Below are positions 1,315-23,304 of a stretch of 64,000 nt of DNA, in pieces. This stretch comes from Isosphaera pallida ATCC 43644 (lineage in GTDB: Bacteria > Planctomycetota > Planctomycetia > Isosphaerales > Isosphaeraceae), in assembly GCF_000186345.1 (NCBI RefSeq), contig NC_014962.1, positions 2,108,001 to 2,172,000 of the forward strand. The letters run 5' to 3'. The notes under the pieces are model-generated. The model was not told where the DNA came from. It saw nothing but the letters and a program-made list of their open reading frames with translations, and made no database searches. Each line of letters starts with the position of its first letter. Positions within the stretch are counted from its first letter, which is position 1. The position numbers and the translations under genes were made by a program.

Positions 1315-1572
1315 ATCTCCCCAACTGTGTCGAATCGCGCCGTTGTTCCCATTCCAGGAGCAATTGGGGATCGCCCTCGCATGGGGTGGCCTGACGTCCT
1401 ACAACAACACTCGTTCGTCGGTCACGTCGAAACCGGCCGGAGGGTCGCCCATGTTCGTTCGATGGATCGAAGCGCAATGTCGGCGAGTTCGGAGGCGCGA
1501 CGCCGCGTCGGCCGAGCCAGCGACGTTGGCCGTCGTTGTTGTCCCCCCCGCTTCCGCATTCGAGGTTTTCGA

Positions 1573-7683: not shown

Positions 7684-7993
7684 CGACATCTCTCCTTAAG
7701 ACCGCATGATCCCTAGGGACGCGATTGCGTCGATCAACCCGATGGAATCGCCTTGTCGTGTTGCGACTATCACCCCGATGGAATCGGTCGCAGCGAATTG
7801 AACTTCCCGTCCAGGATTGCCGATCAGAGGTGAAGAAACGCCTGACAATCCGGCAACGTGGTTCCGGAGACATCGTCAGGGCGGGGTAAGGGACCGGGTC
7901 GATCCGCCCTTCGAATCCAGGGACGTTGGAACATCCAACGCCATTCCTCAAGCGGCGATCGGTTTCCATCGGACTTCCAGGAGGGACTCTCCC
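7684..7993. promoter_or_regulatory. Divergent regulatory region with a repeated CGATGGAATCG motif
   Basis: This 310-bp region separates gshB (minus) from a secreted-protein gene (plus). The 13-mer CCCGATGGAATCG occurs at 7738-7750 and again at 7774-7786, 36 bp apart. Each copy has palindromic CGAT/ATCG ends, as expected of a regulator site. The plus gene has a good ribosome site, CAGGAGGG, at about 7978-7985. Confidence 0.45.
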
Positions 7994-9748
7994 ATGTTCA
8001 GTCCCGCGCATGGCGTAGCGTGGCGGAAGCGATTGGTCGCGGCTGGACTGGCGGCGCTGGTCTTGATCGCGGGTCTTGTCCTTCGCTGGTGGGCGCAGCC
8101 GGGAGCAACCCTGGCTTCGACTTCGCATTCCCAAGGAGTTCCACCCTTTCTCGGCTCCTCCTTGACCAACGTGACGGAGTCCATGCAAACCACCTCGACC
8201 GAGTCCCAGACGTCCGCGGTGGCGGCTCCAGGCGAGTTGGACATGACCGACCTTGCGGCGCTTTTGGAACCGGTCGAAGCCGCCGACTCGCCCCGACTCA
8301 ACCCGAGCGGCAAGCCGGGTGCCGCGACGTTGTCGTTCGACCCGGAACTCACGCAAACCTCGGCGCGGCTGGACGAAGGGTCGGAACCCAGGTCGCTGGA
8401 AATGGTTCCGTTGCTGCCGGAAGCCCAAGAGTCGGGTTCGCCTCCGGTTCCGCCGGGCTTGAACCTTGGGGCGACGCCGCCGTTGCTTGAAACTCGCAAC
8501 CGTCTGGATCAAGCCGCGTGGCCCGCATCGGCGACAGTGTCGCCTGATCAGGGAGCCACGTCAACTCCGACACCCGCTCCTCGGGTCGCTCCAATGGAGC
8601 GCGATACCAACGACGCGGCGACCGGACTGGCTCCCCGCGCGGTGGCGCGATTCCAGGGGATCGCCTCGCCGGGTCTCAAGATCATGTTAGACGCCACCGG
8701 CTCGCAAGGACCTGACTTGCGGGTGCGTTGGCTGCAGACCCGGGGGCCCGCGGTCGATTTGGGCGACCCGCTTCAGCCCGTGCTGTCGATTATGGTTCCT
8801 GAGGCTTCCGGCGAGTTGGAGTTCACCTTGGTGGTGGGCAATGCCCACGGAATCGACTCCACGCGCCTGGTCGTGCCGATCGAAACCGGAGGTCGCAAAC
8901 TCACCGACCCCACCATCGTGGCCGACGCCGGCGACAATCAAATCGGCGTGGTCGGACGGCAAATCACCCTCAACGGCTTGCGCAGCGAACCACGAGGTCA
9001 GATCGGCTACCGCTGGATTCAACTGGGCGGTCCCCGAGTCGTGGCCAAGCTGGAGGATGGGTTCATCTATTCGTTCGTCCCCACCGAACCCGGAGTGTAC
9101 CGCTTCGCTTTGGTGGTTGCGCGAGGATCGGAAATCTCCGAGCCGGCGGAAGTGACCGTCACGGTGGGTCAACCCAAAGAGATGAGCGGCGGCCGTGCGG
9201 TCGAGCCAGCAACGGCGTCGCCCACCCGAGCGCCTGCTGCCTTCGATCCCCCTGGGTTGGTTCAAGCCCCTCCCCAACCGTTGCCAGCCCCTGTAGCCGC
9301 CGAACCCAACCGCCCTGCGTCGTTTGCGGCGGTTGAACCCGTCGGACTGACCGCCACCAACCCCGCCAACGGTTCAACCCGCATGGTCGCCCGCAACCTC
9401 CTGCTCAAAATCGAAGAAGGAACCCTCCGCGCCGCGGGCATGGCCATGGTCTTCAACGGGCTGGCCGACGACCTGGCGCGAGGCCGTTACAACGCCTACG
9501 AGAACCTGATGGGCGACATCGCCTCCGCACTTCAGGGCGTGGTACCGACCGACCCGCTGTTGCGTGAACGTTGGGTTCAACAGGTCTTCCAACCGCTTAC
9601 CGATCAGATGATTCGGGAAATGCTGCCCACCGGGCTCGACCTCAACGAACCCCAGGCTCGGAGCCGACCATTCACACCCACTCAGCGCGATCGTCTGGCC
9701 GGAGTCTTTCGTGAAATGGCTCAGGGCTTCCGCGACCTTTCCCGCTAA
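7994..9748 (+). CDS. Exported protein with two PKD/Ig-like domains
   Basis: The 584-residue product starts at the ATG at 7994, nine bases after an AGGAGGG. One N-terminal hydrophobic segment (LAALVLIAGLVLRWW) would act as a signal anchor. A low-complexity linker follows, then two beta-sandwich-like units. The first contains IMLDATGSQGPDLRVRWLQT and the second ITLNGLRSEPRGQIGYRWIQ. Both have the G-S-x-W pattern and closing beta strands of PKD domains. A Pro-rich linker leads to a helical C-terminal domain of about 120 residues. It is probably periplasmic and structural or adhesive; no enzyme motif is seen. Confidence 0.75.
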   Translation: MFSPAHGVAWRKRLVAAGLAALVLIAGLVLRWWAQPGATLASTSHSQGVPPFLGSSLTNVTESMQTTSTESQTSAVAAPGELDMTDLAALLEPVEAADSPRLNPSGKPGAATLSFDPELTQTSARLDEGSEPRSLEMVPLLPEAQESGSPPVPPGLNLGATPPLLETRNRLDQAAWPASATVSPDQGATSTPTPAPRVAPMERDTNDAATGLAPRAVARFQGIASPGLKIMLDATGSQGPDLRVRWLQTRGPAVDLGDPLQPVLSIMVPEASGELEFTLVVGNAHGIDSTRLVVPIETGGRKLTDPTIVADAGDNQIGVVGRQITLNGLRSEPRGQIGYRWIQLGGPRVVAKLEDGFIYSFVPTEPGVYRFALVVARGSEISEPAEVTVTVGQPKEMSGGRAVEPATASPTRAPAAFDPPGLVQAPPQPLPAPVAAEPNRPASFAAVEPVGLTATNPANGSTRMVARNLLLKIEEGTLRAAGMAMVFNGLADDLARGRYNAYENLMGDIASALQGVVPTDPLLRERWVQQVFQPLTDQMIREMLPTGLDLNEPQARSRPFTPTQRDRLAGVFREMAQGFRDLSR

Positions 9749-9773
9749 GCCGCCTTGGGTAAACCCGACCCGG

Positions 9774-9816
9774 AACCGATTGGGCCAGGACGCTTGGGGT
9801 CCTGTCCCGGTCGGTT
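9774..9816 (+). terminator. Strong hairpin after the PKD-domain gene
   Basis: Arms 9774-9791 and 9799-9816 form an 18-position stem with one mismatch and two G-T wobbles, closing a 7-base loop. It starts 26 bp after the stop codon. No T-run follows, so it may terminate through another mechanism or protect the mRNA 3' end. Confidence 0.6.
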
Positions 9817-10038
9817 CGACAAAAGAACGCATGTTGTTAACGACATGATGATCGACTCTGAATAGCCAACACGATTGTCACCCGCGGAGTCGTTTCGATC
9901 CCGACCCCTCAAGCTAGGCCGATCATGTCACGCAATCCAACGATTCTCAAAGGGGGTCTCCCCGCGCCGGACCCCCTGGCCTCGAATCGGTTCGCGTCCC
10001 GGACACGAAGCCCGCGAAGCGTTGACAAGGAGAAACCC

Positions 10039-11460
10039 ATGAATTCGTGGAGACTTGGAACGCGGGGGTCGGGATGGGCCGTCGCGTTGGGAACGGCTCT
10101 GTTGGCGGTTCTGCTGGGACCACGCGCCATCATCCGGTCCGAACCTCCGTTGATCGCGCCGGCCCCACCGAAAACCCCGCCCGTGCTGAATCCGACGCCG
10201 CCGCCCCCCGAACCCCAAACCGAGCCGGCTGCGACGCCCCAGAACCTCGCGGCCATTCCAACCACTCAAGCCCACGACGCGGCGGACAACAACCCGCCCG
10301 CTGATCTGAGCGACCTGCCGCTCATCCAACTGCCCGACGGCACGACCGTCTACGATTCCACTGCGCGTCAGACTCCCGTTGAATCAACCACCCCCTCTGC
10401 CGTGGTCAGTAACCCGCATCCCGCGTCCCAAATCTCCCAAATCTCCTCCTCATCACCAACGATCTCCCCCGCGCCTCCTTCCAAGGTGGAGGGCTGGGGG
10501 ATCGGGGATCACCACACGCTCGCTCGGTTTGCCACCCCTCACCTTGAACCACCGCCTCTCAATCCCACCCCCTCCCAGAGGCCGACTCCACAAACGTCCC
10601 GGCCTCTGCATGGTTCCAAGTCCGACCCGCCGCGCCATCCAAGCAAACCGACTCCCCAAGCGAATCTGTCTCCCCAGCCGCCGACCGCTTACCAGGCGTT
10701 AAGCCAAACCCGTGATCATGGGACTCCGACCATTTTGATTTGTTGGTCGGAGCGTCGGCCCCAAAGTCGGCAGGTCAAAGATGAACTGATCCGTCACCTT
10801 GACGACTTCCGGCAGCGCGGCTGTCATCTGGCCCAGCTGGAGGAGACCCGGCATACTGAGTTGCTCGACTCGTTGGGCGTGCGGGATTACCCGATTTTGA
10901 TCGCTTACCGTCGAGACGACACCACAGGGCAAATTGAACTGGCGGGCGTGCGTCGCTCTGGGTTTCAGACGCAGGAGCTTCTGAAATGGGCTGCGGACTT
11001 GGGAAACTCACGCGCGGCGACGGGATCTGGAGCGGACCGTCCCACGACGCCCACCATTGCGCAAGGGGATGGACCTCGCATCATCTCGACCCCGGAAGGC
11101 CAGGCGTTGCTGCTGCCGTCCCAAGCATCAACCCAATGGTTGCCACCGGCACCGGGACGTCGGTGGGCCGTGTTGGTGACCCTACCCGACTCGGCAGTCA
11201 ACGCTGATTCAGCCAAGGCCGATCCCTCCACTCAACCTGTCTCATTCGGAACTCCGCTCGCACTCGCCATCGATTCGAGCAGGCGAATGGGCGGAGGATA
11301 CGCCCCCAACCACCTAGTCACCCCCAACCCCAAACGACCGACCCCATCCACCCTCAACGCTTCGACCAAACGGAACGCAATCGACCCTTCCAATTGGATG
11401 CGGTCACTTCGACGAATGCTCACACCGTCCGACTCGCTCTTGGCATCGCCGCCGAGATGA
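10039..11460 (+). CDS. Exported Pro-rich protein with C-terminal thioredoxin-like domain
   Basis: The 473-residue product starts at ATG 10039, behind an AAGGAG. The N-terminus is one hydrophobic segment (ALGTALLAVLLGPRAII). Residues of about 45-215 are a Pro/Ser/Thr-rich disordered linker. The 95 residues beginning TILICWSERRPQSRQV have thioredoxin-fold character: a beta strand, a single Cys where CxxC would sit, a helix, LGVRDYPILIAYRR around the cis-proline position, and a closing helix. The missing second Cys argues against disulfide reductase activity. The last 110 residues are again low complexity. It follows the PKD-domain gene and may act with it in the envelope. Confidence 0.7.
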   Translation: MNSWRLGTRGSGWAVALGTALLAVLLGPRAIIRSEPPLIAPAPPKTPPVLNPTPPPPEPQTEPAATPQNLAAIPTTQAHDAADNNPPADLSDLPLIQLPDGTTVYDSTARQTPVESTTPSAVVSNPHPASQISQISSSSPTISPAPPSKVEGWGIGDHHTLARFATPHLEPPPLNPTPSQRPTPQTSRPLHGSKSDPPRHPSKPTPQANLSPQPPTAYQALSQTRDHGTPTILICWSERRPQSRQVKDELIRHLDDFRQRGCHLAQLEETRHTELLDSLGVRDYPILIAYRRDDTTGQIELAGVRRSGFQTQELLKWAADLGNSRAATGSGADRPTTPTIAQGDGPRIISTPEGQALLLPSQASTQWLPPAPGRRWAVLVTLPDSAVNADSAKADPSTQPVSFGTPLALAIDSSRRMGGGYAPNHLVTPNPKRPTPSTLNASTKRNAIDPSNWMRSLRRMLTPSDSLLASPPR

Positions 11461-11645
11461 CCAAGATGACAAACGAAGGTCTTTCAACGTCAGCGGCCTA
11501 GCCTGGATCGATCCCAACGACTTTCCCCCCTCTCTGGTTGACGAGAGATTGCTCTTGGGAAAGCCGTCGAAACTCGTTGTGGGCAAGGCGACCCGAGCAG
11601 ATCGATGTGGGCTGGACTGGTTGAAGTGGCCCTCCAAGGTGTGGG

Positions 11646-12332
11646 TCAAGATGATTCCTGGTGCGTTCCAACCACCTTTTCGAGTTGCTTGAGGTCGATG
11701 GAAGTGATCGGTTCCTCGGGGTCTTCAATCCGTTCCAAAGCTCCGACCGGCGCGGGTTCCAACTGGTCGCCGTTCTCGTTGGACTTGGAACGTCCCAATT
11801 TGGAGAAGAAGGTCAGAAGCGTCGCGCCGCTTTCCAACAAGCGCTTCAACGCGCTGTTGGAAAGCTGATCGATATGACCGTACCAAACGCTCAACAGCTT
11901 GAGGAATTCGAGCATCTTTTCCAGTTGCTCGATGGTGTAGCGTTCGTCGGGTCCGCCGAGTTTGGCGTCGTGGATACAATGTTCCAGGAGGGCTCGGGTG
12001 GGATCCATTTCCCGACGCTTGCGCTCGGCCATGATCACCCGAAACGTTTCCATGACATCCTTGATGGCCTCGAAGCGGTCGCGTCGGCCGCCGATTTGAT
12101 GGGTGCGTCGGACCACTCCCCAGGCGATGAGTTCGCGCAGGCTGGTCGAGACGTTGGACCGGCTCACATCTAGCAGATTGCTAATCTCCTCGGCGTCCAG
12201 CGGTTCGGGAGCGACATACAGGAGGGCGTGGACTTGGGCCATCGTGCGGTTGATGCCCCAAGCCTGGCCCATCTCGCCCCAATGCAAAATGAACTTTTTG
12301 GTCGCGGGCGTGAGAGTCACGGCTTGCCTCAC
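11646..12332 (-). CDS. GbsR/MarR-family transcriptional regulator
   Basis: The 228-residue protein has an N-terminal winged helix-turn-helix. The stretch WGINRTMAQVHALLYV is followed by LDAEEISNLLDVSRSNVSTS as the recognition-helix region, and RRDRFEA as the wing. This matches GbsR-type regulators, which in Bacillus control choline and glycine-betaine uptake. The C-terminal half is helical with an acidic tail and probably dimerises or senses a ligand. The start is a GTG at 12332 without a clear ribosome site. No osmolyte gene is adjacent, so the regulon is unknown. Confidence 0.88.
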   Translation of the reverse strand: MRQAVTLTPATKKFILHWGEMGQAWGINRTMAQVHALLYVAPEPLDAEEISNLLDVSRSNVSTSLRELIAWGVVRRTHQIGGRRDRFEAIKDVMETFRVIMAERKRREMDPTRALLEHCIHDAKLGGPDERYTIEQLEKMLEFLKLLSVWYGHIDQLSNSALKRLLESGATLLTFFSKLGRSKSNENGDQLEPAPVGALERIEDPEEPITSIDLKQLEKVVGTHQESS

Positions 12333-12688
12333 CCATAACTACGAATCGAGCCGGTTGGAATTAGGAACGCAGGATCAGAAGGCGGCGAACCAAACGACCA
12401 CCTCCAACCGCTCTGAGACGTGAGCCTCGGCGTGAAAACTCGGTCGTCGTGGCGCTTCGACCGTCACGCGAGTTCAGCGCGGTCTGTCATTTCAGTTGTT
12501 ACAGAAATCGTAGCTCAAAACAACCTGGGGTCAAGGCGTTTGTGCTGGGAACTGCTCCAGATGGGCGGACGAGAGGAATGCCACTGCCCGGCGAGTCGTC
12601 CCGCGGTGGGACGGACGGAACTGGTCTGGCTCCCGTTCGACGACACGACCGTTTCCATCTCCATCAGGGGCAATTCGGGCGGGGGGGG
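12333..12688. other. Intergenic gap before the GbsR-family gene
   Basis: 356 bp between the response regulator stop and the GbsR start, both genes being on the minus strand. I see no gene. The open frames crossing it are shadows of the response regulator. No convincing terminator or promoter was found. Confidence 0.4.
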
Positions 12689-13195
12689 TCAGGGTTCGGT
12701 CGAGGCGGGCGAACAAACGCGGCGATCTGCGTTGCGGTTGAGCCAATCGCGGAAGTCCTCCAGTGGAAAGGGTTTGGCCAAAAAGCCGGCCACTTCGCCG
12801 GACTTGACGGCGCGACGGACTCTGGGAGCGTCGGCGTCGAGCAAACCGCTGACGACCACGAAACGCAAGTCGGGACAAAGCGAGCGAAGGCGACGCACCA
12901 ACTCCCAACCGTCGAAGTCGGGCAGCATCAAATCGACGAAGGCCAAGAACGGTTCGAAGCCGAGCGATTGATGGCCCGCCGGAGACGAGCAGGAGGGGTC
13001 CAACAGCCTCAAGGCCGCGTCGCCCGAATTGGCACGGCGAACGGACCAACCCGCCTTCTCGGCGACCCGAGCCAGTATCCAGGACAGATCCTCTTCGTCG
13101 TCCACAATTAGAACCGAGGGCGCGACCGGATTGCCCTCTGCCATCACGCTCAACGAGGAGCGTTCCCCGATGATCGGGTCTGGGCCCGTCGCCAT
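12689..13195 (-). CDS. Single-domain response regulator
   Basis: A 168-residue CheY-like receiver without an output domain. It shows the acidic pair in VLIVDDEEDL, the phospho-acceptor Asp88 in FVDLMLPDFDG, and the conserved Lys in FLAKPF. Its ATG at 13195 lies 4 bp past the histidine kinase stop, and its GGAGGG ribosome site sits inside the kinase gene end, so translation is coupled. It is the likely phosphorylation target of that kinase and must signal by protein-protein contact or pass phosphate on. Confidence 0.93.
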   Translation of the reverse strand: MATGPDPIIGERSSLSVMAEGNPVAPSVLIVDDEEDLSWILARVAEKAGWSVRRANSGDAALRLLDPSCSSPAGHQSLGFEPFLAFVDLMLPDFDGWELVRRLRSLCPDLRFVVVSGLLDADAPRVRRAVKSGEVAGFLAKPFPLEDFRDWLNRNADRRVCSPASTEP

Positions 13196-13198
13196 GAG

Positions 13199-15004
13199 TC
13201 AATTCCCTCCACGAAGCGGTCGGGAGACCGAAAACACGCGTTCGGCAGCGAGGAAGGGTGAGGAGAACGGATCGTGCTGGGACTCTCGACCCGCGGCGTC
13301 GTCCAGACGGGGCAGGGTTACAATAGCGACCGTCCCCTGATTCGGTTCACTGGTCAACTCGATGAAGCCGCGATGTTCCCGGACAATCGCATGGGCAATC
13401 GTCAAACCCATCCCAGTGCCGCCCCCCACCGGACGGGTCGTGAAGAAGGGGTCAAACACATGTTGAAGATGTTCGGGACTAATCCCTGGCCCATTGTCAC
13501 GAACCTCGACAACAATCCAGCGGCAAGACGGCGCGTGGTCGGACGAATCGTCCCGCGGGAAGGCGACCAATTCCACCCGACCCACCGCTCCTACCTTGGA
13601 TGAGACATCCTCGGCCTCCTCCGACGAGCTGGGGTGGTGATCGTGTTCCTCGAAGGCGTGAATCGCGTTGAGCAGAAGATTCACCAGCAATTGTCGCAGA
13701 AGGTCAGCCACTCCCATCACTGGGAGGGGTTCCTCGCCCAGTTGGACCGACAGATCGACCCGACGTAAACGGGCTGGATGCCGGGTCAGTTCGACCGCCT
13801 CCGCCGCCACCGTCCGCAAGTCGAGCGGCGTGCTGCGCTCGCGCGCCCCGGTGCGGGCGAACCTCAAGAGATTCTCCACAATCGCGGCGACCCGCCGCAC
13901 CCCCTTGTCGATTTTCTCAGCGCATTGCCGACGCAATTCGGCGGCGGGATCGGCGAGGCGGGCGGCCTCCTCCGACTCCGCTTCCAAAAGCATTTGAGCC
14001 GCGCAGGAGACTACCGCCAAAGGGTTGCGAATCTCGTGCGCGATTCCGCCGGCCATCACCCCCAGCGCGGCGAGTTTCTCGGCGCGGAGAAGCTGATCGC
14101 GCCAGCGTCGCGGTTCGGTCAAGTCGCGTCCGAGCGCCACGAAGCCCCCGGACTCGTCGCGCATCGAGGAAACCACCCAGGCGATTGGGATCGCGCGACC
14201 ATCGGCGTGCTTAAGTTCGGCCTCAAACGAGATCGAGGGCTTCTGCTTCTGGGCGCTGAGTCCCTCCAGAGCAGCCCTTATGGTCGCCTGGTCGCATCCC
14301 TGGGCAAGCTCGACGAGCGGCAGACCGAAGACCGACGCCTCCGCACGTCCAGTGATTCGCTCCGCGGCCGTGTTCCAGGTCAAAATCCGACCGAACCGAT
14401 CCATCGACACGACAAGGTCGCTGGCGCTTTCCACCACGCTGGCCAGGTGGCGTTCCGCCCGCCGCGCTTCGCGGCCCAGACGGTCGATTTCGGTGACATC
14501 CTCCATGACCAACATGACCGACTCGACTCGACCGGCCCACTTGAACGGCACCAACCGATAGAAAAAGGTCCGCGACGGCGATCCAGGCGCGCGGTAGTTG
14601 ATCCGCTCGCCCCCTTGAGGCTCTCCGGTGGCGAAGGCGCGTCGCAACCGCGCGGTCAAGTTGAGGCATTCGGCGATGACTGAGGGAAAAACCGCCTCGA
14701 CGCGCTTGCCCACCACCTCCGATTCCCTGGTGCGGCTTTTGAGCAGAAAGTTGGCGTTGGCCGACACCACCTTATGCTGAGGGTCAATGATCAGAACCGA
14801 TGTTGGCGTCCCATCCAACACCATGCGATACAACCGCTCGTATCGTGCCTCTGCCCCGGCCTCTGCGCCATCGTTGCTCGTCTCGGCGGCGACCGACGGT
14901 TGCAGCTCCCCGACCGTTTCGGTGGCGGAGCCGACCAAGGGAATCGACTCGGAGTTGGCTTGAAACCCCGACGGTTCGTCGTGGGGGGTGGCGAACGCAT
15001 CCAT
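13199..15004 (-). CDS. PAS-domain sensor histidine kinase (soluble)
   Basis: 601 residues from ATG 15004. Two PAS domains come first, one containing SVLIIDPQHKVVSANANF and one with LVVSMDRFGRILTWNTAAE. A HisKA domain follows with phospho-acceptor His323 in GGIAHEIRNPLAV, then a HATPase with N-box LLVNLLLNAIHAF, G1 box VRDNGPGIS, F-box FDPFFTTRP and G2 box GGGTGMGLTIA. No membrane segment is visible, so it should sense a cytoplasmic cue through PAS. It overlaps functionally with the receiver gene 4 bp downstream. A GvpF/L-like gene lies upstream in the same direction. Confidence 0.94.
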   Translation of the reverse strand: MDAFATPHDEPSGFQANSESIPLVGSATETVGELQPSVAAETSNDGAEAGAEARYERLYRMVLDGTPTSVLIIDPQHKVVSANANFLLKSRTRESEVVGKRVEAVFPSVIAECLNLTARLRRAFATGEPQGGERINYRAPGSPSRTFFYRLVPFKWAGRVESVMLVMEDVTEIDRLGREARRAERHLASVVESASDLVVSMDRFGRILTWNTAAERITGRAEASVFGLPLVELAQGCDQATIRAALEGLSAQKQKPSISFEAELKHADGRAIPIAWVVSSMRDESGGFVALGRDLTEPRRWRDQLLRAEKLAALGVMAGGIAHEIRNPLAVVSCAAQMLLEAESEEAARLADPAAELRRQCAEKIDKGVRRVAAIVENLLRFARTGARERSTPLDLRTVAAEAVELTRHPARLRRVDLSVQLGEEPLPVMGVADLLRQLLVNLLLNAIHAFEEHDHHPSSSEEAEDVSSKVGAVGRVELVAFPRDDSSDHAPSCRWIVVEVRDNGPGISPEHLQHVFDPFFTTRPVGGGTGMGLTIAHAIVREHRGFIELTSEPNQGTVAIVTLPRLDDAAGRESQHDPFSSPFLAAERVFSVSRPLRGGN

Positions 15005-15165
15005 GAAAACAAACTCAAACTCGATGGTCGATGCGACGGAGAAATCCAACTCAACCAAATAGACCGCGAAAGTGTAGTGTGGAGCGGGGCGAAGTGAGCG
15101 GGAGTCGGCAAAGGGGCAGTGGAATCGCGTGTTGCGTCAAGCCTTGAATTCCCGACCGCCGAGAA

Positions 15166-16059
15166 TCAAGGCGCGCCAACTTCTTCCTCGGGTTCCCCCA
15201 CGAAGGAATAGGGCGCAAATGGTCCGGAGAGCAACCATCGCCCCTGGCAACCTGCGGTGGGTCGGCGAGCTTGCTCGGCCCAGGCGGAGAAACGGGTGAG
15301 GAACTCCGGAACCCGAAGCCGATCAATCAACAGAGCAACCGCCCCTTGGCTCTGATTTGACCCTGGTTGATACCGCCAAGAGACCACCAGATCACCTAAT
15401 TCCGACCGGAACCGCTCAACCTCGGATGGAGGCGCGTGACGGGCGCGGAGTCGCAGAAGGTGGGCGGTTCCAGGACCGATGACCGCCTGGTTCTGAACGG
15501 GGGAGGAGTGATCCGCCTCGACGTGATCCGTCGTCCTCGCCGTGTTGGCGGCATGGGTCCAGCGAATCCCGTATTCGTCCCGACCGGCTACCGCGTGGAG
15601 TCGTCGCTTCCAGTGGGACGCGAAGCGGGCAAGAAGGACTCCCAACGGCGCGGGATCACTCAGCTGAGTAAACCTCATCGGCAGCGTTGGCGTCCAACGG
15701 TGGAGTTCACTAACCGTCGCCGCCAAGCGGGAGGCCAACCGTGCCGCAGCTGCCACGGAGAGAGGCAGTTCGTCTGGTGAGCGAACGCGACGCAACGCCA
15801 AAATGACCAACTCCTCGGCGGGCGAGGGTTGCGAGTCAAACACGCTGGGAGCCTCGGGGATGATCCAGACCGGTTCCCACTGCGGCCCCACCTGACGAGC
15901 CGCGGCCTCCCAGGCGTCGCGTTGCGGACCCTCCGGCGCGCGGAGGATCGCCAAGGGAATCCAGACCGGACTTGCGGCCGGGGGAACCGTTCCGACCAAC
16001 CGAGGCTCCGATGAAGAGGGATCGGAATCGGAAGGAGTCGAATGATCGGAAGGAGTCAT
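15166..16059 (-). CDS. Gas vesicle protein GvpF/GvpL family, isolated copy
   Basis: A protein of about 297 residues from ATG 16059, chosen because GGAGG lies eight bases upstream; ATGs at 16065 and 16074 are alternatives. The C-terminal RWLLSGPFAPYSFV fits the GvpF/L hallmark SGPWPPYxF. Upstream segments around LPMRFTQLSDPAPL and a later helical VERFRSELGDLVVSW agree with the two-lobed GvpF fold. GvpF/L proteins associate with GvpA during gas vesicle assembly. No gvpA, gvpN, gvpK or other gvp gene is in this window, so either the cluster is split or the protein has another job. The N-terminal 50 residues are Ser/Pro-rich. Confidence 0.72.
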   Translation of the reverse strand: MTPSDHSTPSDSDPSSSEPRLVGTVPPAASPVWIPLAILRAPEGPQRDAWEAAARQVGPQWEPVWIIPEAPSVFDSQPSPAEELVILALRRVRSPDELPLSVAAAARLASRLAATVSELHRWTPTLPMRFTQLSDPAPLGVLLARFASHWKRRLHAVAGRDEYGIRWTHAANTARTTDHVEADHSSPVQNQAVIGPGTAHLLRLRARHAPPSEVERFRSELGDLVVSWRYQPGSNQSQGAVALLIDRLRVPEFLTRFSAWAEQARRPTAGCQGRWLLSGPFAPYSFVGEPEEEVGAP

Positions 16060-16303
16060 GGTCATGCCCTCCATACCGAGAACCAACGCGATTCGCCAAC
16101 TGGAACCCGCGGAGGTGACCCACGAGATTGGAACCGACGCGCCCAAGATCGCCTCGTTGGTCGATCCGATCACCTTCGGGAACCTCACGCGGAGACACGC
16201 GAAAGGTGAAAACCGGATGGAACACGATGCGGATCAACAAACGCATCAGTCACCAGGCTGGAGGGAACGGGATTCCTCCTCGACAACCGCTCCTCCCTCA
16301 AGG

Positions 16304-16735
16304 TCATTCCAACCCAACTTCCTTTTTGACCCTGTTGAACCAGTTGCTCAAGAATCCCTTTTTGATGGGAGCCTCGCCATCCTCGATCATTCGAGCCACG
16401 AGGCGCTTACAATAGATTTCATCCTGAAGATTCTTGCAGGCGGTCATAGCGACACGCACCGCCTGGATGAACTCCTCCTCGTCGATTTTGCCATCGTTGC
16501 TGAGCGACGCCTTGAGCGTCATATTAACCTTGGCTTTGATGTCCGTCTCCAGCAAATGCCCCTGTTCGTGGCAGACTTCACGAAGCACGGCTTGCGCGCT
16601 TTCCAGAGGGATTCCCTCGTTCACGCAATCGCGGAGGATGTCGGCTTCCTCGCGGCTATCAATGTACTTGTCGGAGCCGTAACCCCGGCGCTGAATGATC
16701 CGCTTGAACTGCGTTTTGTATTCCTCGACCGCCAT
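16304..16735 (-). CDS. Small acidic protein with an EF-hand/TerB-like loop
   Basis: A 143-residue soluble protein from ATG 16735, with GGAG nine bases upstream. I do not recognise a named family. It is mostly helical and contains SNDGKIDEEEFIQAV, which resembles one EF-hand loop or the acidic motif of TerB-like domains. The C-terminal tail (KKGFLSNWFNRVKKE) is basic and amphipathic, so membrane or nucleic-acid contact is possible. It lies 244 bp upstream of the GvpF/L-like gene in the same direction. Confidence 0.75.
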   Translation of the reverse strand: MAVEEYKTQFKRIIQRRGYGSDKYIDSREEADILRDCVNEGIPLESAQAVLREVCHEQGHLLETDIKAKVNMTLKASLSNDGKIDEEEFIQAVRVAMTACKNLQDEIYCKRLVARMIEDGEAPIKKGFLSNWFNRVKKEVGLE

Positions 16736-17314
16736 GAACGGTGTCTCCGTAACGGGGATTTTGGACTGGATTCACAGAACGGGCTTGGAAACGGGATAGG
16801 CCGGGGGAACGCGGGCATCAGGGAATGAACCAGACGGGCGAAGCCAAGGGTGGAGTTAGATCCCAAAGACGACCAGGGGCAAACGCCATTGGAACGGCAT
16901 CGTGGGGACGAATCCGCCGACCCGACCAACCGCTCTCCTTGATCGCAATGCGGCTCCAACCACGGCCCCAGCGCGAGGATACGAACCGGATGGACGTCGG
17001 ACTAGACCCAAGTGGCGGAGATGAGATGAGTTTCAACACCAGACGGGTTCGGGGAAAAAACTCGTCTCTTCGGAATGGCCCTTTTTTTTTAGAATGGGAC
17101 AACGCGGGCGCGTCGGAAACAGGGTGGGAAGCCCTGCCGCCACCGCGTCCCATGCCACAATGGATCGTCGAATCGCCGCATCGACCACGCACGCTCCGCC
17201 CCGCATCCTTTGCCGCCCCTCCGGCGGCGAGGTCCTCCACTGCGTTCGTCACGGGGAGAGCCTCTTTTGATGGAATGAAACGGCTTCGACTCCTCAGGGA
17301 GGTGACAGAATCCC
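16736..17314. other. Divergent intergenic region with a T9 tract
   Basis: 579 bp between a minus-strand gene and the plus-strand prolyl isomerase. Frames on both strands are open here but have no family likeness, so I call none. A run of nine T at 17082-17090 ends in TAGAAT (17090-17095), a near-consensus -10 box for the plus strand, though no good -35 lies at the right spacing. Confidence 0.4.
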
Positions 17315-18427
17315 ATGCTTGCTCTGCATTTCCGCCGCCTTAGTCGCTCCGCGCCTGTTTGGGTTCCGGCGCTGGTCGTGCTGCTGACCTTGCTCCCGGC
17401 CCGCTCGGGTTTTTCACCGTTCGGCGCGGCCGCCCATGCTCAACCCCCCGCTCCGCCCGCCGCGGCGGCTCAACCCCCCGCCGATCCCAAAGCTGACCAA
17501 CCCCTCGCCGTCGTCAACGCCACCCCAATCACCCGCCGCGATGTTCAACGGATCATGGCCCAAATCGAGTTGGCCCCCGGCGCGGAGATTCAAGACGCCT
17601 ACAACATGGCGGTCGAAATGCTGGTCAACACCGAACTGTTGTTCCAGTTCCTCAATAGGCAGGGGATCACCGTCACCAAAAAGGACCTTGACGACGAACT
17701 CGCCCGGCTCAGCGAGTCGCTCAAGGCCCAGAACCTCACCCTGGAACAAGCTCTCGCCGCCAACGGCGCGACCATGCAGGAACTTCAGAAGGATCTCACC
17801 CGCGCTAAGCTTTGGGAGAAATACGTCACCCGGGTTGCGACCGAGGAGCGTCTGAAAAAGTATGTCGCCGACAACCAAGACTTATTCAACGGCGTTAAGG
17901 TGACGGCGCGTCACATCCTGCTGAAAGTTCCCGAGGGGGCTTCCGAAGAGGTCAAGGCCTCGATCAAGGCTAAACTGTTGGCGATCAAAGCCGAGATCGA
18001 GTCAGGCAAGATCGAGTTCGCCGAAGCGGCTGATAAGTACTCCGAGGACGACGGCAACAAGCAGCAACCTTCTGGCGGTTTCCTAGGGGAATTTTATCGT
18101 CGCGGCCAACTGATCGAGGAGTTTGCCGAAGCCGCGTTCAAGTGTAAACCAGGGGTGATCTCCGACCCGGTTGAAACCGAGTTCGGCTACCATCTCATCC
18201 TGGTCACCAACCGAGACGAAGGCCAGCCGTTCGATTTTGAGAAGGGCCGCGACATCGCCTTTCAACAGTTCGAGAGCGAACTGCGCGAGGAAGTCATCCT
18301 CGCCGAGAAAGCCAAGGCCAAGATTGAAAAGCAGCCAATGCCAAGCGACCTTGTGCCCCCCGCGACCAGCCCCGAGACAGCTCCCTCCCCCACTCCCGCC
18401 TCGGCCACGCCGGCTTCCGGTTCATAA
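17315..18427 (+). CDS. Exported peptidyl-prolyl isomerase, SurA/PpiC type
   Basis: 370 residues from ATG 17315, with GGGAGGTG upstream. The signal peptide ends near AAAHAQ (about residue 43). A SurA-like N-terminal helical domain follows (VVNATPITRRDVQRI to about residue 185). The parvulin domain runs from ARHILLKVPEG through GGFLGEFYRRGQLIEEF to EFGYHLILV. A Pro/Ala-rich tail ends the protein. It should catalyse proline isomerisation or chaperone exported proteins in the periplasm. The same layout is seen in PrsA and SurA foldases. Confidence 0.92.
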   Translation: MLALHFRRLSRSAPVWVPALVVLLTLLPARSGFSPFGAAAHAQPPAPPAAAAQPPADPKADQPLAVVNATPITRRDVQRIMAQIELAPGAEIQDAYNMAVEMLVNTELLFQFLNRQGITVTKKDLDDELARLSESLKAQNLTLEQALAANGATMQELQKDLTRAKLWEKYVTRVATEERLKKYVADNQDLFNGVKVTARHILLKVPEGASEEVKASIKAKLLAIKAEIESGKIEFAEAADKYSEDDGNKQQPSGGFLGEFYRRGQLIEEFAEAAFKCKPGVISDPVETEFGYHLILVTNRDEGQPFDFEKGRDIAFQQFESELREEVILAEKAKAKIEKQPMPSDLVPPATSPETAPSPTPASATPASGS

Positions 18428-18624
18428 GTCGTTCCCACGGGCAGAGACCCGCTCGCGTCCACTCAGACGTTGACATTGAACGCGTTTCTCACGCCGTTGC
18501 TCTTCTCTTCTCACTCAAACTCCCTCGCGTTGTGAAGCCCGGGGTCTCCGAACATGGACCAGCTGGCGAAGCGAGGGAGCATTTTCCGCCACGCGGTCCG
18601 TTTCACCACCCCGATCCGTGGATC

Positions 18625-19377
18625 ATGCCCCTCGAACCCGCCGCCTCACCACCGCCTCAACGCGGGCCTTGGCCCGATCAGCCCCTTGACATTCTGGTGG
18701 TCGGCACCCATCCCGACGACGCCGAAATCGGTCTGGGGGGATCGATCGCCCGCTGGATCGCTCAACAATACCGGGTGGGCATCCTCGATCTCACCAGCGG
18801 CGAGCCGACCCCATTAGGTACCCCAGAACGCCGCCGCGCAGAAACTCAAAAGGCCAACCACGCCCTAGGAAACCCCTGGCGAATCAACCTCGGCCTCCCC
18901 AACCGCAACCTGGAACCCACGCTGATCCATCGTCGCGTTGTCGCCGAAGCCCTTCGACGCGCCCGCCCGCGAATCGTGTTCGCTCCCTTCGAGCGCGACG
19001 CCCACCCCGACCACGTCGCCGCCTCCCTGCTGGTCCAGGCGGCCCGTTTCTGGGCCAAGCTCACGAAGTCCGACCTCGACGGCGAGCCTCTGCCGCCACC
19101 CCGGCTGCTCTTCTACTTCTCCCTCCACCTCCGCGCTCCCGAACCAGCCCAGCTGGCCCTCGACATCTCGTCCCACCTCGACGTCAAACTCCAAGCCCTC
19201 CAAGCCTATCGCTCGCAATTGGTGGACAATCAACCCCACGGTCAACCCACCGTCATCGAACGAGTCCTCACCCGCGACCGCTACTGGGGACACCTTATCG
19301 GTGTCCACGCCGCCGAACCAATCGCCTCCGCCGAACTCCTCGGCCTCGCCTCGCTCCACGACTTGACCCTCTCCTAA
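18625..19377 (+). CDS. PIG-L-family deacetylase, BshB1-like
   Basis: 250 residues from ATG 18625; a GTG at 18532 is an alternative start. The zinc motif HPDD in VVGTHPDDAEIGLGGSI, the ITSGEPTPLG-like DLTSGEPTPLGTPERR, and HPDH in FERDAHPDHVAAS match the BshB1 branch, which deacetylates GlcNAc-malate in bacillithiol synthesis. LQAYRSQL near the C-terminus is also family-typical. BshA and BshC are not in this window, so a different GlcNAc-type substrate cannot be excluded. Confidence 0.85.
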   Translation: MPLEPAASPPPQRGPWPDQPLDILVVGTHPDDAEIGLGGSIARWIAQQYRVGILDLTSGEPTPLGTPERRRAETQKANHALGNPWRINLGLPNRNLEPTLIHRRVVAEALRRARPRIVFAPFERDAHPDHVAASLLVQAARFWAKLTKSDLDGEPLPPPRLLFYFSLHLRAPEPAQLALDISSHLDVKLQALQAYRSQLVDNQPHGQPTVIERVLTRDRYWGHLIGVHAAEPIASAELLGLASLHDLTLS

Positions 19378-19465
19378 ACCACCACCACAACTGGTTCTAA
19401 TCAATCGCAACTCATTCCCCGATGATGCTTAACGAAAAGCGTAACAGAAACCTGGAAAATTTTTC

Positions 19466-19494
19466 TTGACGAACCAGGTCAACTCACGCATAAT
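19466..19494 (+). promoter_or_regulatory. Sigma-70-like promoter
   Basis: TTGACG at 19466-19471 and CATAAT at 19489-19494 are separated by exactly 17 bp. This is one of the two best promoter matches noticed in the window. Transcription would begin near 19501, just ahead of the small ORF at 19527. Confidence 0.6.
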
Positions 19495-19526
19495 CCATAC
19501 GGAAATGCAAGGCGACACGACATTGG

Positions 19527-20005
19527 ATGGTTGCCTTGACATTGAGTGTCACCGTTGGTTTCCACGGCCTCTTCTCTGTTCCGGCCTCGGTGGTTTGGTC
19601 TTCGGGCCAAGCCATCGAGGTTTTTTTCGATCTGATGACAACCAGTCAGATCGTTTCAATCGTGGATCGCCAGTTGGAGAAAAGCAACACGCTCCTCATT
19701 GACCCCTTGGTCTCGACCGAGCCGGGTCGTATGGCTGACTCGATTGCCCGGGGCTTAGACCCTCGACTTGAAGGATTGCCCGGGGCTTAGACCCTCGACT
19801 TGAAGAGCGACTCCAGCGGGGTCGGGGAAACACGGGGAAGAGAGAAAACGAGTCACTTCCGCAAGAGCAATCCTTGCTGGAAATAACCCATTTGATTGTC
19901 GATCCAGCCGAGCCTGACCAAAACCCAACGGACCTTCCGCTAACTCACCACCACTGGTCGGTCACCACTGCGTCCAAACCCGACGCAAACGCCACCAGTG
20001 CGTAA
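19527..20005 (+). pseudogene. Small exported-protein ORF broken by a 32-bp tandem duplication
   Basis: From ATG 19527 the frame reads an N-terminal hydrophobic stretch (MVALTLSVTVGFHGLF) and stops after 87 codons inside the second copy of a 32-bp repeat. Because 32 is not a multiple of 3, removing one copy restores an open frame that runs a further 66 codons to a TAA at 20003-20005, giving about 148 residues. A good promoter lies directly upstream. I do not recognise the protein. The downstream frame could be open by chance (roughly one in ten at this base composition), so the call is tentative. Confidence 0.45.
19742..19805. repeat. Perfect 32-bp tandem duplication
   Basis: Positions 19742-19773 and 19774-19805 are identical. 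The repeat starts GATTGCCCGGGG and ends CGACTTGAAG. It shifts the reading frame of the ORF at 19527. Perfect identity suggests a recent slippage event, or a switch that can reverse. Confidence 0.95.
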
Positions 20006-20088
20006 ACGGGCCGAGCGAGGTAACAAACCACGCCTCCAGATTAGGATGAGGGAAGGAGAGATTGGTATATTGCAGATTGGAAACAAGT

Positions 20089-20922
20089 TCACTTATCGTC
20101 GATTTTGAGACCGGAGAGGAAATCCGCGACCGCGTCGTCCACATCGGTGCCTGAAGATTCGGGTTCGGCGGGAGTGGGCGGGGGTGGTGGTTGAGCTGCG
20201 GGGGATGCCTCATTCGAGGCGCGAGGAGAAGCGGGACGTTGTTCGGGGAGCGTGGTGGTTCGGGCGGTGTCGTTGATCTCGCCCAGCCCCAAATCCAGCA
20301 CGAACTCGTCCTCGTCGGCGGATTTCGCGGCGGCCGGGGGCGTGGGCGCGGCGGCTGGTTCGGGAATCAACTTCGACGGTCTTGAGGTGGTGGGAGCCGG
20401 CGCGGCTTGGGCTGGCGTTTTTTCAGCGGGCGTGTCGTCGAAAAGCATGTCGAAGGCATCGTCCTCGGCACTCTTGGCGGAGGCGGGGGCGGATTCGGGT
20501 GAGACGGCCGAAACGGGGACAGGAGCCGGCGCGGCTGGAGACGGGACGGGAGCGGCCATCCCAGGCGCGGTATCGCCCGGACCGGCCTTGGCCGGAGAAG
20601 CGGCCGGGGCGGCGGATGTCGAGGTGTCCGCCATCACGGCGACCTGAAACACTAAGGGCCCGATCACGAGCGTGTCGCCGGGACTCAGCATGGTTGGCGC
20701 TTGGATTCTGAGTCCATTGACAAAAGTTCCATTACTACTTTTCAAATCAATCACATAAAGATGACCGCCCTTGACGATCAATTGGCAATGTTGTCGGGAG
20801 ACTTCGGAAGAGACGATGCGGATCTGGCAATCCTCGCGACGGCCGATGAAGGTCACATCCTCTCGAATCGGCAGGGGGCGGGGGGCACCCGGTCCCTTGA
20901 TCATAATCAGTTTGAACGACAT
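20089..20922 (-). CDS. FHA-domain protein with Ala/Pro-rich tail
   Basis: 277 residues from ATG 20922. The N-terminal 100 residues form an FHA phosphothreonine-binding domain with the usual FIGRREDCQIRI, SSEVSRQHCQL and DLKSSNGTFVNGLRI motifs. The middle is a long Ala/Pro/Ser linker. A short acidic motif follows (DEDEFVLDLGLGEIND), and the C-terminal TDVDDAVADFLSGLKID may be a docking helix. It probably scaffolds Ser/Thr-kinase signalling, which is abundant in planctomycetes. No kinase gene is adjacent. Confidence 0.92.
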   Translation of the reverse strand: MSFKLIMIKGPGAPRPLPIREDVTFIGRREDCQIRIVSSEVSRQHCQLIVKGGHLYVIDLKSSNGTFVNGLRIQAPTMLSPGDTLVIGPLVFQVAVMADTSTSAAPAASPAKAGPGDTAPGMAAPVPSPAAPAPVPVSAVSPESAPASAKSAEDDAFDMLFDDTPAEKTPAQAAPAPTTSRPSKLIPEPAAAPTPPAAAKSADEDEFVLDLGLGEINDTARTTTLPEQRPASPRASNEASPAAQPPPPPTPAEPESSGTDVDDAVADFLSGLKIDDK

Positions 20923-21294
20923 GGTCTTCGCGTCCCTCGCCCTAGGTTGGTTCGCCTCGTCCGACCCCTCTGCGTCCCAACCACCTGCCCAACGAACCGA
21001 CAAGACAAGAGGAATCACAGGTCGGATCGCCTTATTCGACGGTCCGAAGAGACTCCGACCACCGTGAGGGAAGTCGCGGCGAACCCGACCGCACCCCAGT
21101 TGAAACTATCCGAGATGATCGTCGAATGCAACTCAGCGACCCCAATGAAACGTCTTGGGTGAAACGATCGCGCGGGGATTCCCGGACGCGCGCCTCGTCG
21201 TTGGAGGTTCAGGTGGTTACACTCAAGTCGCTCCGCTTTGACTCGTTGCCGCGCCAAGTCGGGCAGGATTTAGAATGAGGGAGACCCTGCGACA
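20923..21294. other. Divergent region between the FHA gene and queF
   Basis: 372 bp without a supported gene. I looked for a preQ1 riboswitch before queF and found no convincing pseudoknot signature by eye. Confidence 0.4.
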
Positions 21295-21648
21295 ATGTCC
21301 GCTTCACTTTTGGAAACCTTTCCCAACCAGTTCCCCAACCGCGAGTACGAGGTCGAAATTACCTGCCCGGAGTTCACGGCGGTTTGTCCCAAAACCGGTC
21401 AGCCCGACTTTGGCACCATCATCATCCGCTATGTCCCCGGCGATAAGGTTCTGGAACTGAAAAGTCTCAAGCTTTACCTGTTCTCCTACCGTGATCGGGG
21501 GATTTTCTACGAACATTCAATCAACACGATCCTGGACGATCTGGTTCGGGTGGTTCAGCCACGTCGTATGACCGTTGTGGGCGATTTCCGCCCTCGCGGG
21601 GGCATCACCTCCAAAATCACCGCCCAGCACCAGGCTCAGGCTGGTTGA
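21295..21648 (+). CDS. queF: NADPH-dependent 7-cyano-7-deazaguanine reductase
   Basis: QueF reduces preQ0 to preQ1 in queuosine biosynthesis. The 117-residue length is that of the single-domain (type I) enzyme. The catalytic cysteine lies in ITCPEFTAVCPKTGQPDF, the substrate and NADPH segment LELKSLKLYLFSYRDRG follows, and FYEHSINTI completes the family signature. A GAGGGAG lies eleven bases before the ATG. The other preQ0 genes are not nearby. Confidence 0.96.
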   Translation: MSASLLETFPNQFPNREYEVEITCPEFTAVCPKTGQPDFGTIIIRYVPGDKVLELKSLKLYLFSYRDRGIFYEHSINTILDDLVRVVQPRRMTVVGDFRPRGGITSKITAQHQAQAG

Positions 21649-21766
21649 TCGTCGTGGGCGCTTCGCCGCTGCTGGCCGGCCCCAACCCCCTAGAAGGCTA
21701 CGGCGTCACGCCGCTCCACTTTGCTTTTGTGTTGTCCCCCAAAACAAACCTGGAATCGAATCCGCC

Positions 21767-22648
21767 ATGCGCTTCGATGCTGCCAACCCACTTCCACCAC
21801 CGGACTTGGTGACCCTGACCACTGACTTCGGCCTGGTCGGTTCGTATGTTGGCGAACTCAAAGGGGCGATCCTCAGTCGGTCGCGGCGGGCGGTGCTGGT
21901 GGATGTCTGTCACACGGTGGATCCCCAGGACATTCGCCAAGGGGCGTGGATTCTCGAGTCAGCGGCCCGCGCCTTTGGTTCCGGCGTGGTTCATCTGGCG
22001 GTGGTGGATCCCGGCGTGGGCACCACGCGCAAGGTCGTGGCCCTTCGCCCACGCAGCCGCTCGGTCTGGTTGGTGGGTCCCGACAATGGCCTGCTCATTC
22101 CCGCCCTCGATGCCCTCGGTGGCTGTGCCGAGGCCTGGACCGTTGAACCTCACGCCCCCGCGATTCGCGCCGGCTCGGTCGATCCAACCTTCCACGGCCG
22201 CGATCTCATGGCCCCGGCGGTGGCCCACCTCGTGGAAGGCGGCCCCGCCGAAGCCCTGGGACCCCGCCACGACCCCGACCAACTGGTCAGGGCCGATCAT
22301 TGGGAAGCCCAGTTCGTCGAACATCCCCGTCCCAGCTTCCGTGCGGAAATCGCCGTCATCGATCGCTTCGGCAACCTCACCCTCAACCTTCGCGCCGCCC
22401 GCCTTGTCGAACGTCTCGGACCACGCTACCACCCCCGCGCCGTTCGCGTCGTCCTGGACGCGCCGGCTTGCGGCGGACCAGTCGAGGTTGTCGGTCTCAA
22501 CCGCACCTACGGCGATCACGCTCCCGACGCGCTGATCGCGCTGACCGGCTCGTCCGGCCGTCTGGAACTGGCCGTCGTCAACGGCTCGGCGGCCCGACGT
22601 CTGGGGGTCCAGGTCGGTCATCCTGTTCAAGTCGATTTGGTTGAGTAG
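21767..22648 (+). CDS. SAM hydrolase / SAM hydroxide adenosyltransferase (DUF62)
   Basis: The 293-residue protein from ATG 21767 hydrolyses S-adenosylmethionine to adenosine and methionine in characterised homologues. Motifs in order are TLTTDFGLVGSYVGELKG, VVDPGVGT, GPDNGLL, TFHGRDLMAP and IDRFGNLTLN, the last lying in the C-terminal beta-barrel. It follows queF by about 120 bp and may share its transcript. Its physiological role is unclear in most bacteria. Confidence 0.93.
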   Translation: MRFDAANPLPPPDLVTLTTDFGLVGSYVGELKGAILSRSRRAVLVDVCHTVDPQDIRQGAWILESAARAFGSGVVHLAVVDPGVGTTRKVVALRPRSRSVWLVGPDNGLLIPALDALGGCAEAWTVEPHAPAIRAGSVDPTFHGRDLMAPAVAHLVEGGPAEALGPRHDPDQLVRADHWEAQFVEHPRPSFRAEIAVIDRFGNLTLNLRAARLVERLGPRYHPRAVRVVLDAPACGGPVEVVGLNRTYGDHAPDALIALTGSSGRLELAVVNGSAARRLGVQVGHPVQVDLVE

Positions 22649-22734
22649 CTCAGGGGGTTGGGTTGGTCCCCGCGTTGGGTTCAACCGCGCGAACCGTTCG
22701 TCCGGTCGCACGCTCTTTCCGGTCAGGCGGACGC

Positions 22735-22762
22735 TTGACAGTCGCCCCCCTCGACTGATAAA
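22735..22762 (+). promoter_or_regulatory. Promoter for tRNA-Phe
   Basis: TTGACA at 22735-22740 and GATAAA at 22757-22762 are separated by 16 bp. The -35 box is a perfect consensus. The tRNA begins 24 bp after the -10 box. Confidence 0.6.
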
Positions 22763-22785
22763 GTTCGTTCATTGACCACACGTCA

Positions 22786-22858
22786 GGGCAGATAGCTCAG
22801 CTGGTAGAGCACAGGACTGAAAATCCTGGTGTCGCCGGTTCGATCCCGGCTCTGCCCA
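22786..22858 (+). tRNA. tRNA-Phe (anticodon GAA)
   Basis: A 73-nt cloverleaf. The acceptor arm GGGCAGA pairs with TCTGCCC, the D arm is GCTC/GAGC, and the anticodon stem CAGGA/TCCTG holds loop CTGAAAA with GAA at its centre. The T arm is GCCGG/CCGGC with loop TTCGATC. The discriminator base is A and the CCA end is not encoded. Confidence 0.97.
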
Positions 22859-22910
22859 CTTGTCAAAAGTCTCGACTCTCCGCCCCGCTGGAGACCTCGT
22901 CTCTCATGCA

Positions 22911-22970
22911 TGGCGGACAGCTCAGCTGGGAAAGCGTCGGCTGTTGCCAATTCGATCCCAGCTCCACCCA
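22911..22970 (+). pseudogene. Truncated tRNA-like relic
   Basis: 52 bp after tRNA-Phe, the sequence again shows a D-arm-like GCTCAGCTGGGAAAGC, a T-loop-like TTCGATCCCAGC and a 3' end CCACCCA. The anticodon arm is missing or collapsed and the acceptor arms do not pair. It is only about 60 nt long, so it should not make a working tRNA. Confidence 0.6.
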
Positions 22971-23304
22971 CTGATCAGCATTCCTTTTGGAACACAGATC
23001 AACGTCAGTGGGTCGCGCTTCTCCGAATGATCAAGGTGAGGCAACACGAGCTCTTGGTTCTCTCCGCAGATCGCGTTCTCGATTCTTAGAACCTCGCCGC
23101 GATCTCACCCAACTGTATCCTATCATGATTAGAATCGATCAAATTGTCAGCGTAGGATGGCGGACCAAGCGGTAACGATCTCAAGAGGTCGCAACTCGAT
23201 TCACCTTGACCACCCGGAATGCGGATTTCCCGCCGCGACTCGCCGGAGGCGACGAGTCGGGCGGGGTGGTGAGAGCCGAGATGAACCAGGGGTCTAGAAA
23301 TGGA
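22971..23304. other. Intergenic gap after the tRNA relic
   Basis: 334 bp with no supported gene, terminator or repeat. Base composition is locally less GC-rich around 23020-23170. Confidence 0.4.

Follow-up and report, generated by a model that had tools for sequence, protein, structure and literature searches.

Why does a gene for a gas vesicle protein stand apart from gvpA in Isosphaera pallida? In the 64,000-nucleotide stretch that we analysed (the window) from the chromosome of this buoyant bacterium of hot springs, a gene that resembles those of the GvpF/L family is followed by genes for a kinase and a receiver. An earlier note, made from the letters of the window, had offered two explanations: a split gas vesicle gene cluster, or a GvpF/L relative with a signalling role. 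Our analysis indicates that the window very probably contains one end, gvpF3-gvrB-gvrC, of a set of gas-vesicle genes that in I. pallida is broken into four blocks. We favour this reading because profile and predicted fold both place the protein in GvpF/L, the kinase is kin to kinases of gvp clusters, GvpF/L, kinase, receiver and gvpA genes recur in this order in other genomes, and three further blocks lie on the same chromosome (Table 1).

Table 1. Features of the window trio (window positions) and of the four gvp blocks (contig C2, in kb).
Feature	Position	Strand	Basis and remarks
gvpF3-type GvpF/L protein	15166..16059	minus	297 aa, ATG at 16059; PF06386 and predicted fold
gvrB-type histidine kinase, PAS-PAS-HisKA-HATPase	13199..15058	minus	Pfam; possible true start ATG at 15004
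gvrC-type stand-alone receiver, 168 aa	12689..13195	minus	PF00072, 50 bits; starts 3 bp after kinase stop codon
gvrA-gvpH-gvpZ types	C2:608.7-613.6 kb (609-614 kb)	minus	NtrC, Hsp20-like and CDC48 genes
gvpA to gvpJ main cluster (locus L007)	C2:1,074-1,080 kb	minus	PF00741, PF06386, gene content
gvpF2-type gene	C2 1,877 kb	minus	PF06386, 115.6 bits; alone, adjoins rhomboid gene
gvpF3-gvrB-gvrC types (window)	C2 2,121-2,124 kb	minus	PF06386, kinase and receiver profiles

The GvpF/L protein of the window

The gene is an intact open reading frame (ORF) with a ribosome-binding GGAGGG seven bases 5' of its ATG; the longer GTG-started ORF that reaches 16188 is a mechanical call. Residues 98-287 of its product match Pfam PF06386 (GvpL_GvpF) at E 1e-14 (55.6 bits against a cut-off of 23.6; 54.7 bits in the search of the whole genome), and about 30 additional residues precede the conserved domain. 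The protein ends in SGPFAPYSFV, as the earlier note had read, and thus carries the C-terminal motif GPWPPYxF of GvpL/GvpF in the form GPFAPYSF, with W changed to F and one P to A relative to the A2/A3 consensus. An AlphaFold2 model built with 43 relatives (pLDDT 82.4, pTM 0.74) had GvpF crystal structures as its top Foldseek matches (E 8.9e-10 to 8e-9). Structural alignment gave Z 16.3 (rmsd 4.8, 215 aligned residues) with 6l5d_A and Z 15.5 (rmsd 5.2, 229 aligned residues) with 4qsg, and the next structural match after the GvpF crystals stood at Z 8.7; the Foldseek and VIA-align rows below GvpF were common ferredoxin-like matches, to which we gave no meaning. The predicted model shares the two-domain fold of the Microcystis and Anabaena GvpF proteins (4qsg, 6l5d) along almost its entire length. 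From these the window protein differs in sequence (about 15% identity), in additional N-terminal residues and in its genomic setting. Profile search and predicted fold thus confirm that the gene encodes a GvpF/L-family protein, as the earlier note had called it. GvpF is reported to bind GvpA before shell entry and is thought to be a chaperone, and GvpL to be a platform for other Gvp proteins, in the parts of PMC9501494 and PMC11445434 drawn on here.

The protein is strongly divergent, scoring 54.7 bits versus 212.7 for the clustered copy of its own genome. A phmmer search with the window ORF recovered no GvpF/L at E 1e-2 in nine gvp-related loci, and no close ortholog appeared in the named-genome contig collection, which was searched with the protein alone. 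In 45 genomes of the order we found no ortholog but the protein itself (E 0.01), the single weak match being in G032 (44% over 41 residues), and no NCBIfam model matched at 0.001.

Four gvp blocks on one chromosome

The earlier note had suggested looking for gvpA elsewhere in the genome. PF00741 (the gvpA family) has three matches in I. pallida, all in the main cluster, 1.04 Mb from the window trio on the same chromosome, and the same search found no gvpA/J/S-type gene within the window. The main cluster contains gvpA, a coiled-coil gene, gvpN, a gvpO-like gene, gvpF, gvpG, a gvpS-type gene, gvpK, a DnaJ-like gene and a gvpJ-type gene ('gvpO-like', 'coil', 'X', 'L2' and 'L3' are labels coined in the present analysis), and the 19-kb stretch round it showed no NtrC, Hsp20, CDC48, F2, F3 or gvp-type kinase gene. 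The genome has three GvpF/L genes, that of the main cluster, that at 1,877 kb (115.6 bits) and that of the window. In the block at 609-614 kb, whose ORFs overlap by 4 bp with their neighbours, the CDC48-type gene (C2:608.7-611.0 kb) is 70% identical to its counterpart in G010, the draft genome of a family member with a contiguous cluster, over residues 180-696 and 44% over residues 10-181, the NtrC gene (C2:612.1-613.6 kb) is the 51% counterpart of the G010 NtrC (best of 11), and the Hsp20-like gene between them scores 39 bits with the cluster profile. The X gene, which begins the regulatory half of some gvp clusters (see below), was not found in the I. pallida genome in a search that had no positive control.

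The successive blocks, all of them encoded on the contig's minus strand, are spaced by about 460, 796 and 243 kb, and their genes are uninterrupted ORFs. Instead of one contiguous cluster with gvpA, gvpN and accessory genes in about 20 kb, the I. pallida gvp set is in four unlinked blocks. To place this dispersal we compared 37 GvpF/L-positive genomes, taken as samples: 23 others had at least two matches on one contig, with a span that never exceeded 9.9 kb, seven were drafts with matches on different contigs and so not judgeable, and six had one match, which leaves I. pallida as the only one shown to be split. Cells of I. pallida IS1B contain gas vesicles (PMC3072084, in the part consulted), in line with the statement in the earlier note that some Isosphaera strains make them. 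The split cluster proposed there was borne out by the distant gvpA cluster and by relatives that hold the window block inside contiguous gvp clusters. In described examples of gvp systems nearly all genes stand together, whether as a single cluster or as two neighbouring operons, and here and there a lone gene lies elsewhere. Partial separation is known from Microcystis, described as having one cluster plus V plus W (PMC9501494). The components of the I. pallida set are known and the new element is the unusual degree of dispersal; the literature that we searched gave no description of a split gvp set in this species.

Kinship of the kinase and receiver

The three genes of the window follow one another on one strand in the order GvpF/L, kinase, receiver, from 16059 to 12689, with 311 bp between the end of the GvpF/L match and the kinase match. 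The kinase retains the H-box, N, G1, F and G2 motifs in alignment, and the receiver, which is 28-38% identical to 12 receivers adjoining gvp-type kinases, retains the phospho-acceptor and other key residues. Third-position GC is 0.668 in the GvpF/L gene versus 0.739 in the kinase gene and 0.751 in the receiver gene. The flanking genes at 16304-16735 (143 aa) and 11646-12332 (MarR/TrmB-like) had no matches in the gvp loci searched; the 143-aa protein, encoded upstream of the GvpF/L gene, gave an EF-hand match only, below threshold. Rfam returned nothing at gathering threshold within 12000-17000, neither of the sigma-70 promoter-like sites found by the promoter scan stands before any of the three genes, and the count of terminator-like sites was below the shuffled mean.

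GvpF/L occurred in eight of the 45 family-search genomes, I. pallida included, and each of the seven relatives has two or three copies in a set that lies within 7.3 kb on one contig. When the window kinase was used as query in these 45 genomes (at most 28 candidates scored per genome), its best relatives were in G010 (52% identity, 394.6 bits) and G033 (47%, 320.6 bits), with the next at 149 bits or less, and both of these kinases were inside gvp clusters, directly 3' of a GvpF/L gene. A profile of ten gvp-type kinases was run over 392 genomes of the phylum, with the three best first-look candidates scored per genome; it gave nine matches of 705-810 bits, the window kinase at 705, and the next at 312. 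Upstream of all nine kinases a GvpF/L match ends 171-477 bp away on the same strand, and all nine genomes figure among the GvpF/L-positive genomes of the phylum (five of the nine had supplied training sequences for the profile; G732, G555, G704 and G638 had not). Among the best 80 of 472 named GvpF/L loci, eight had a gvp-type kinase (scores 525-654), in each case between the GvpF/L gene and a receiver: those of a Brocadiaceae genome (L113), Jettenia ecosi (L114), a Planctomycetota MAG (L125), four Deltaproteobacteria MAGs (L146, L155, L177, L191) and a Syntrophaceae MAG (L153), two of the eight being duplicates of loci already in the set (L113 is the same contig as L105, and L125 the same as L088). 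Many of the other 72 loci had kinases that scored 36-177 with the profile, or none. In a kinase tree of the 60 among 78 candidates that passed a length and score filter, the window kinase fell within the gvp-type clade (SH-aLRT 100), with the kinases of G010 and G296 (SH-aLRT 98), and outside this clade lay kinases from various gvp loci, acidobacterial and gemmatimonad ones among them. GvpF/L had been the criterion for collecting the loci in the tree, which on its own is therefore no proof of association with gvp; the family query and the 392-genome profile search are free of that bias.

Because the best relatives of the kinase sit in gvp clusters between gvpF/L and gvpA, the kinase and receiver beside the window gene are, judged from their sequences, gvp genes too. 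The earlier note had correctly seen a PAS kinase and a receiver, here a two-PAS histidine kinase and a lone receiver 3' of the GvpF/L gene on the same strand. Its view that the gene had no gvp neighbours stands for gvpA and gvpN, which are not beside it, but not for the kinase and receiver, whose types belong to the gvp clusters of relatives. A kinase of the window type is not needed in every gvp system, since five of the seven gvp-bearing family relatives, each with only two GvpF/L genes, are without it and many outside loci have a kinase of another clade or none. Candidatus Brocadiaceae, Jettenia ecosi included, carry the F/L-kinase-receiver block (L114, L113/L105); L093 is assigned to Brocadiaceae solely by its family code, f64.

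Annotation of 33 loci with home-made profiles revealed a recurring layout, complete in few of them, of X, NtrC, Hsp20, CDC48-type AAA, F2, F3, kinase, receiver, gvpA, gvpN, gvpF, gvpG, gvpS, gvpK and gvpJ, and seven of the 33 had a kinase above 250 bits with the gvp-kinase profile (L024, L025, L054, L087, L088, L093, L105). The cluster of G010 (L025) resembles the I. pallida set in having NtrC, Hsp20/GvpH, CDC48-type AAA, F2, F3, kinase, gvpA, gvpN, gvpF, gvpG, gvpK and gvpJ types in one row, its Hsp20 gene passing the Pfam GvpH cut-off (28.5 vs 22 bits); it differs in being contiguous within 16 kb and in that the F3 (7331-8068) and kinase (8065-9558) genes overlap by 4 bp at stop and start, which suggests translational coupling. 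Between its kinase and gvpA genes, G010 showed no receiver. The kinase gene directly follows an F3-type gene in G010 and an F2-type gene in G033 and G296. A plasmid of Methylocella tundrae (NZ_LR536451.1), which was annotated independently, likewise has a sigma-54 regulator, GvpL/GvpF, a kinase (annotated as ATP-binding protein), a response regulator, gvpA and gvpN in order, with an HTH gene and a hypothetical gene between; this locus differs from that of I. pallida in being contiguous and in having, in the stretch shown, one GvpF/L before the kinase, which groups with L2 and not L3 rows in the tree. The X protein, of about 210 aa, begins the regulatory half of the gvp clusters in 14 of the 33 loci (L025 286-924 and equivalents); that of G010 has no Pfam match, and shares 41-51% identity and many invariant residues with six others.

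The window gene is provisionally placed in the F3 type, mainly by gene order and also because the genome has its F1 and F2 types elsewhere; its placement in the tree is weak. As the earlier note had proposed, we compared it with clustered GvpF/L proteins in a phylogeny, in which the window protein fell on the L3 side (97/87) with an end branch of 3.18 changes per column. L3 is a label by cluster position, and the rows so defined are not one clade: a topology test rejected a clade of all position-defined L3 rows plus the window protein (p-AU 0.022), and grouping of the window protein with F was not rejected (p 0.122). This tree omits six rows that an earlier one had already omitted (one each of L101, L102, L103 and L056, and two fragments of L094), and in addition clusters L090, L091, L092, L095, L098 and L100.

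We take GvrB of Serratia ATCC 39006 to be a sensor kinase and GvrC to be a receiver. The Serratia operon has, in the same succession as the planctomycete layout, a sigma-54 NtrC-like regulator, gvpH, one more gene, two GvpF genes and two regulatory genes (PMC4982088; the order is also given in PMC9501494). This likeness is one of gene order, with GvrB, GvrC and GvpZ matched by place; the CDC48-type AAA gene of planctomycetes is in the place of gvpZ and is equated with it by place only. In Serratia the operon is unbroken and lies next to the gvpA1 operon (PMC4982088), whereas its counterpart in I. pallida is cut into gvrA-gvpH-gvpZ, gvpF2 and gvpF3-gvrB-gvrC types in three places far from gvpA. 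In the parts of PMC4982088 consulted, GvrA is a sigma-54 NtrC-like activator of gvpA1, GvrB and GvrC are called regulatory, and each of the three is needed for full gvpA1 expression; gvpF1, gvpF2, gvpF3, gvrA and gvrB are required for vesicles and a gvrC mutant makes very few; GvpZ is described as a protein of unknown function and the reason for three GvpF proteins as unresolved.

Proposed regulation in trans and competing readings

With the mechanism drawn from work on gas vesicles of Serratia ATCC 39006, Bacillus and haloarchaea, the kinase (GvrB) and receiver (GvrC) of the window would relay a cytoplasmic signal to the sigma-54 activator GvrA at 612 kb, which in turn would switch on a sigma-54-type promoter before gvpA at 1,080 kb. 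GvpF3 would, with two other GvpF/L assembly factors, attend to GvpA-type subunits as the vesicle is built, and the set would work in trans, with at least four transcription units under a single pathway. This reading suggests what the kinase and receiver probably do, beyond what annotation of their sequences offers, and it adds planctomycetes, Brocadiaceae among them, to the bacteria in which regulators of the GvrB-GvrC type are seen. A strong sigma-54-like site with 12 of 13 positions starts 147 bp before the gvpA ORF of I. pallida; none of 2000 random 430-bp control pieces reached 12, and 15 reached 11. Such a site before gvpA is not general among gvp loci, because only seven of 29 gvpA upstream stretches reached 11 (two of the seven being one contig counted twice), and no site of at least 11 of 13 was found before the window trio (9000-24000 scanned). 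By a post hoc comparison, the score before gvpA was 12 in both I. pallida and G033 (L024), genomes with NtrC and kinase genes, and 7 or less in L026-L030, which are without the kinase; L026-L029 have no NtrC gene between X and Hsp20, and L030 ends before this place.

A further reading, tentative and rather doubtful, is that GvpF3 is a sensory partner of GvrB, which by binding unassembled GvpA-type subunits would report the progress of assembly and adjust gvpA transcription. Such a partnership would account for the F/L-kinase unit having stayed together when the set scattered, for the gene overlap in G010 and for the position of all nine kinases after GvpF/L; however, the F2-type gene before the kinase in G033 and G296 argues against its being tied to F3 alone.

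It is improbable that the window GvpF/L protein no longer takes part in assembly and that, with its old gvp fold, it now works in signalling alone, as the kinase's partner or ligand sensor. Its divergence from the clustered copy and its distance from gvpA agree with this, as do G634 and G474 (drafts, 80% and 90% complete, with no PF00741 match), in which orphan GvpF/L genes lie close to hybrid kinases and receivers. However, the F/L-kinase-receiver block lies directly before gvpA in other genomes, I. pallida cells make gas vesicles, gvpF3 is required for vesicles in Serratia (PMC4982088), and the kinases of G634 and G474 are outside the gvp-kinase clade. The signalling role suggested in the earlier note is not needed, as the kinase and receiver are themselves conserved genes of gvp clusters. 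The GvpF/L genes of these two drafts of one family, without a PF00741 match, are better candidates for a role in signalling only than the window gene: that of G634 (L101, 3913-4713) encodes a GvpF/L-domain protein of 41.5 bits near a hybrid histidine kinase, with 1145-3088 and 3054-3713, in a locus that additionally carries a receiver fused to an HTH, and that of G474 (L103, 10370-11131) one of 35 bits near a hybrid histidine kinase, with 7860-10031.

We consider it very unlikely that the trio is a remnant in decay, in a cell that makes its vesicles with no GvpF but the clustered one and is losing the scattered pieces. The five family relatives that keep gvp clusters with two GvpF/L genes and no such kinase would be in keeping with this, as would the lower third-position GC of the window GvpF/L gene and the example of G296, which keeps parts of the regulatory half, several of them in broken frames, in a genome without a PF00741 match. 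The pieces in I. pallida are, however, uninterrupted ORFs, the conserved residues of kinase and receiver are intact, and the GvpF fold is predicted with good confidence. In G296, the regulatory half of a gvp set survives without gvpA in a 9.9-Mb genome (L054, 5061-12242), as NtrC, Hsp20, CDC48, F2-type, kinase and receiver genes.

Chance adjacency of an unrelated NtrB-like kinase and a stray gvpF/L gene has next to no probability and was rejected: such kinases are common (as many as 151 first-look candidates in a single genome), yet the window kinase has 52% identity to that of the G010 gvp cluster, and the 392-genome survey set it among nine kinases, all of them after a gvpF/L gene, that are separated from the next candidate by the gap between 705 and 312 bits.
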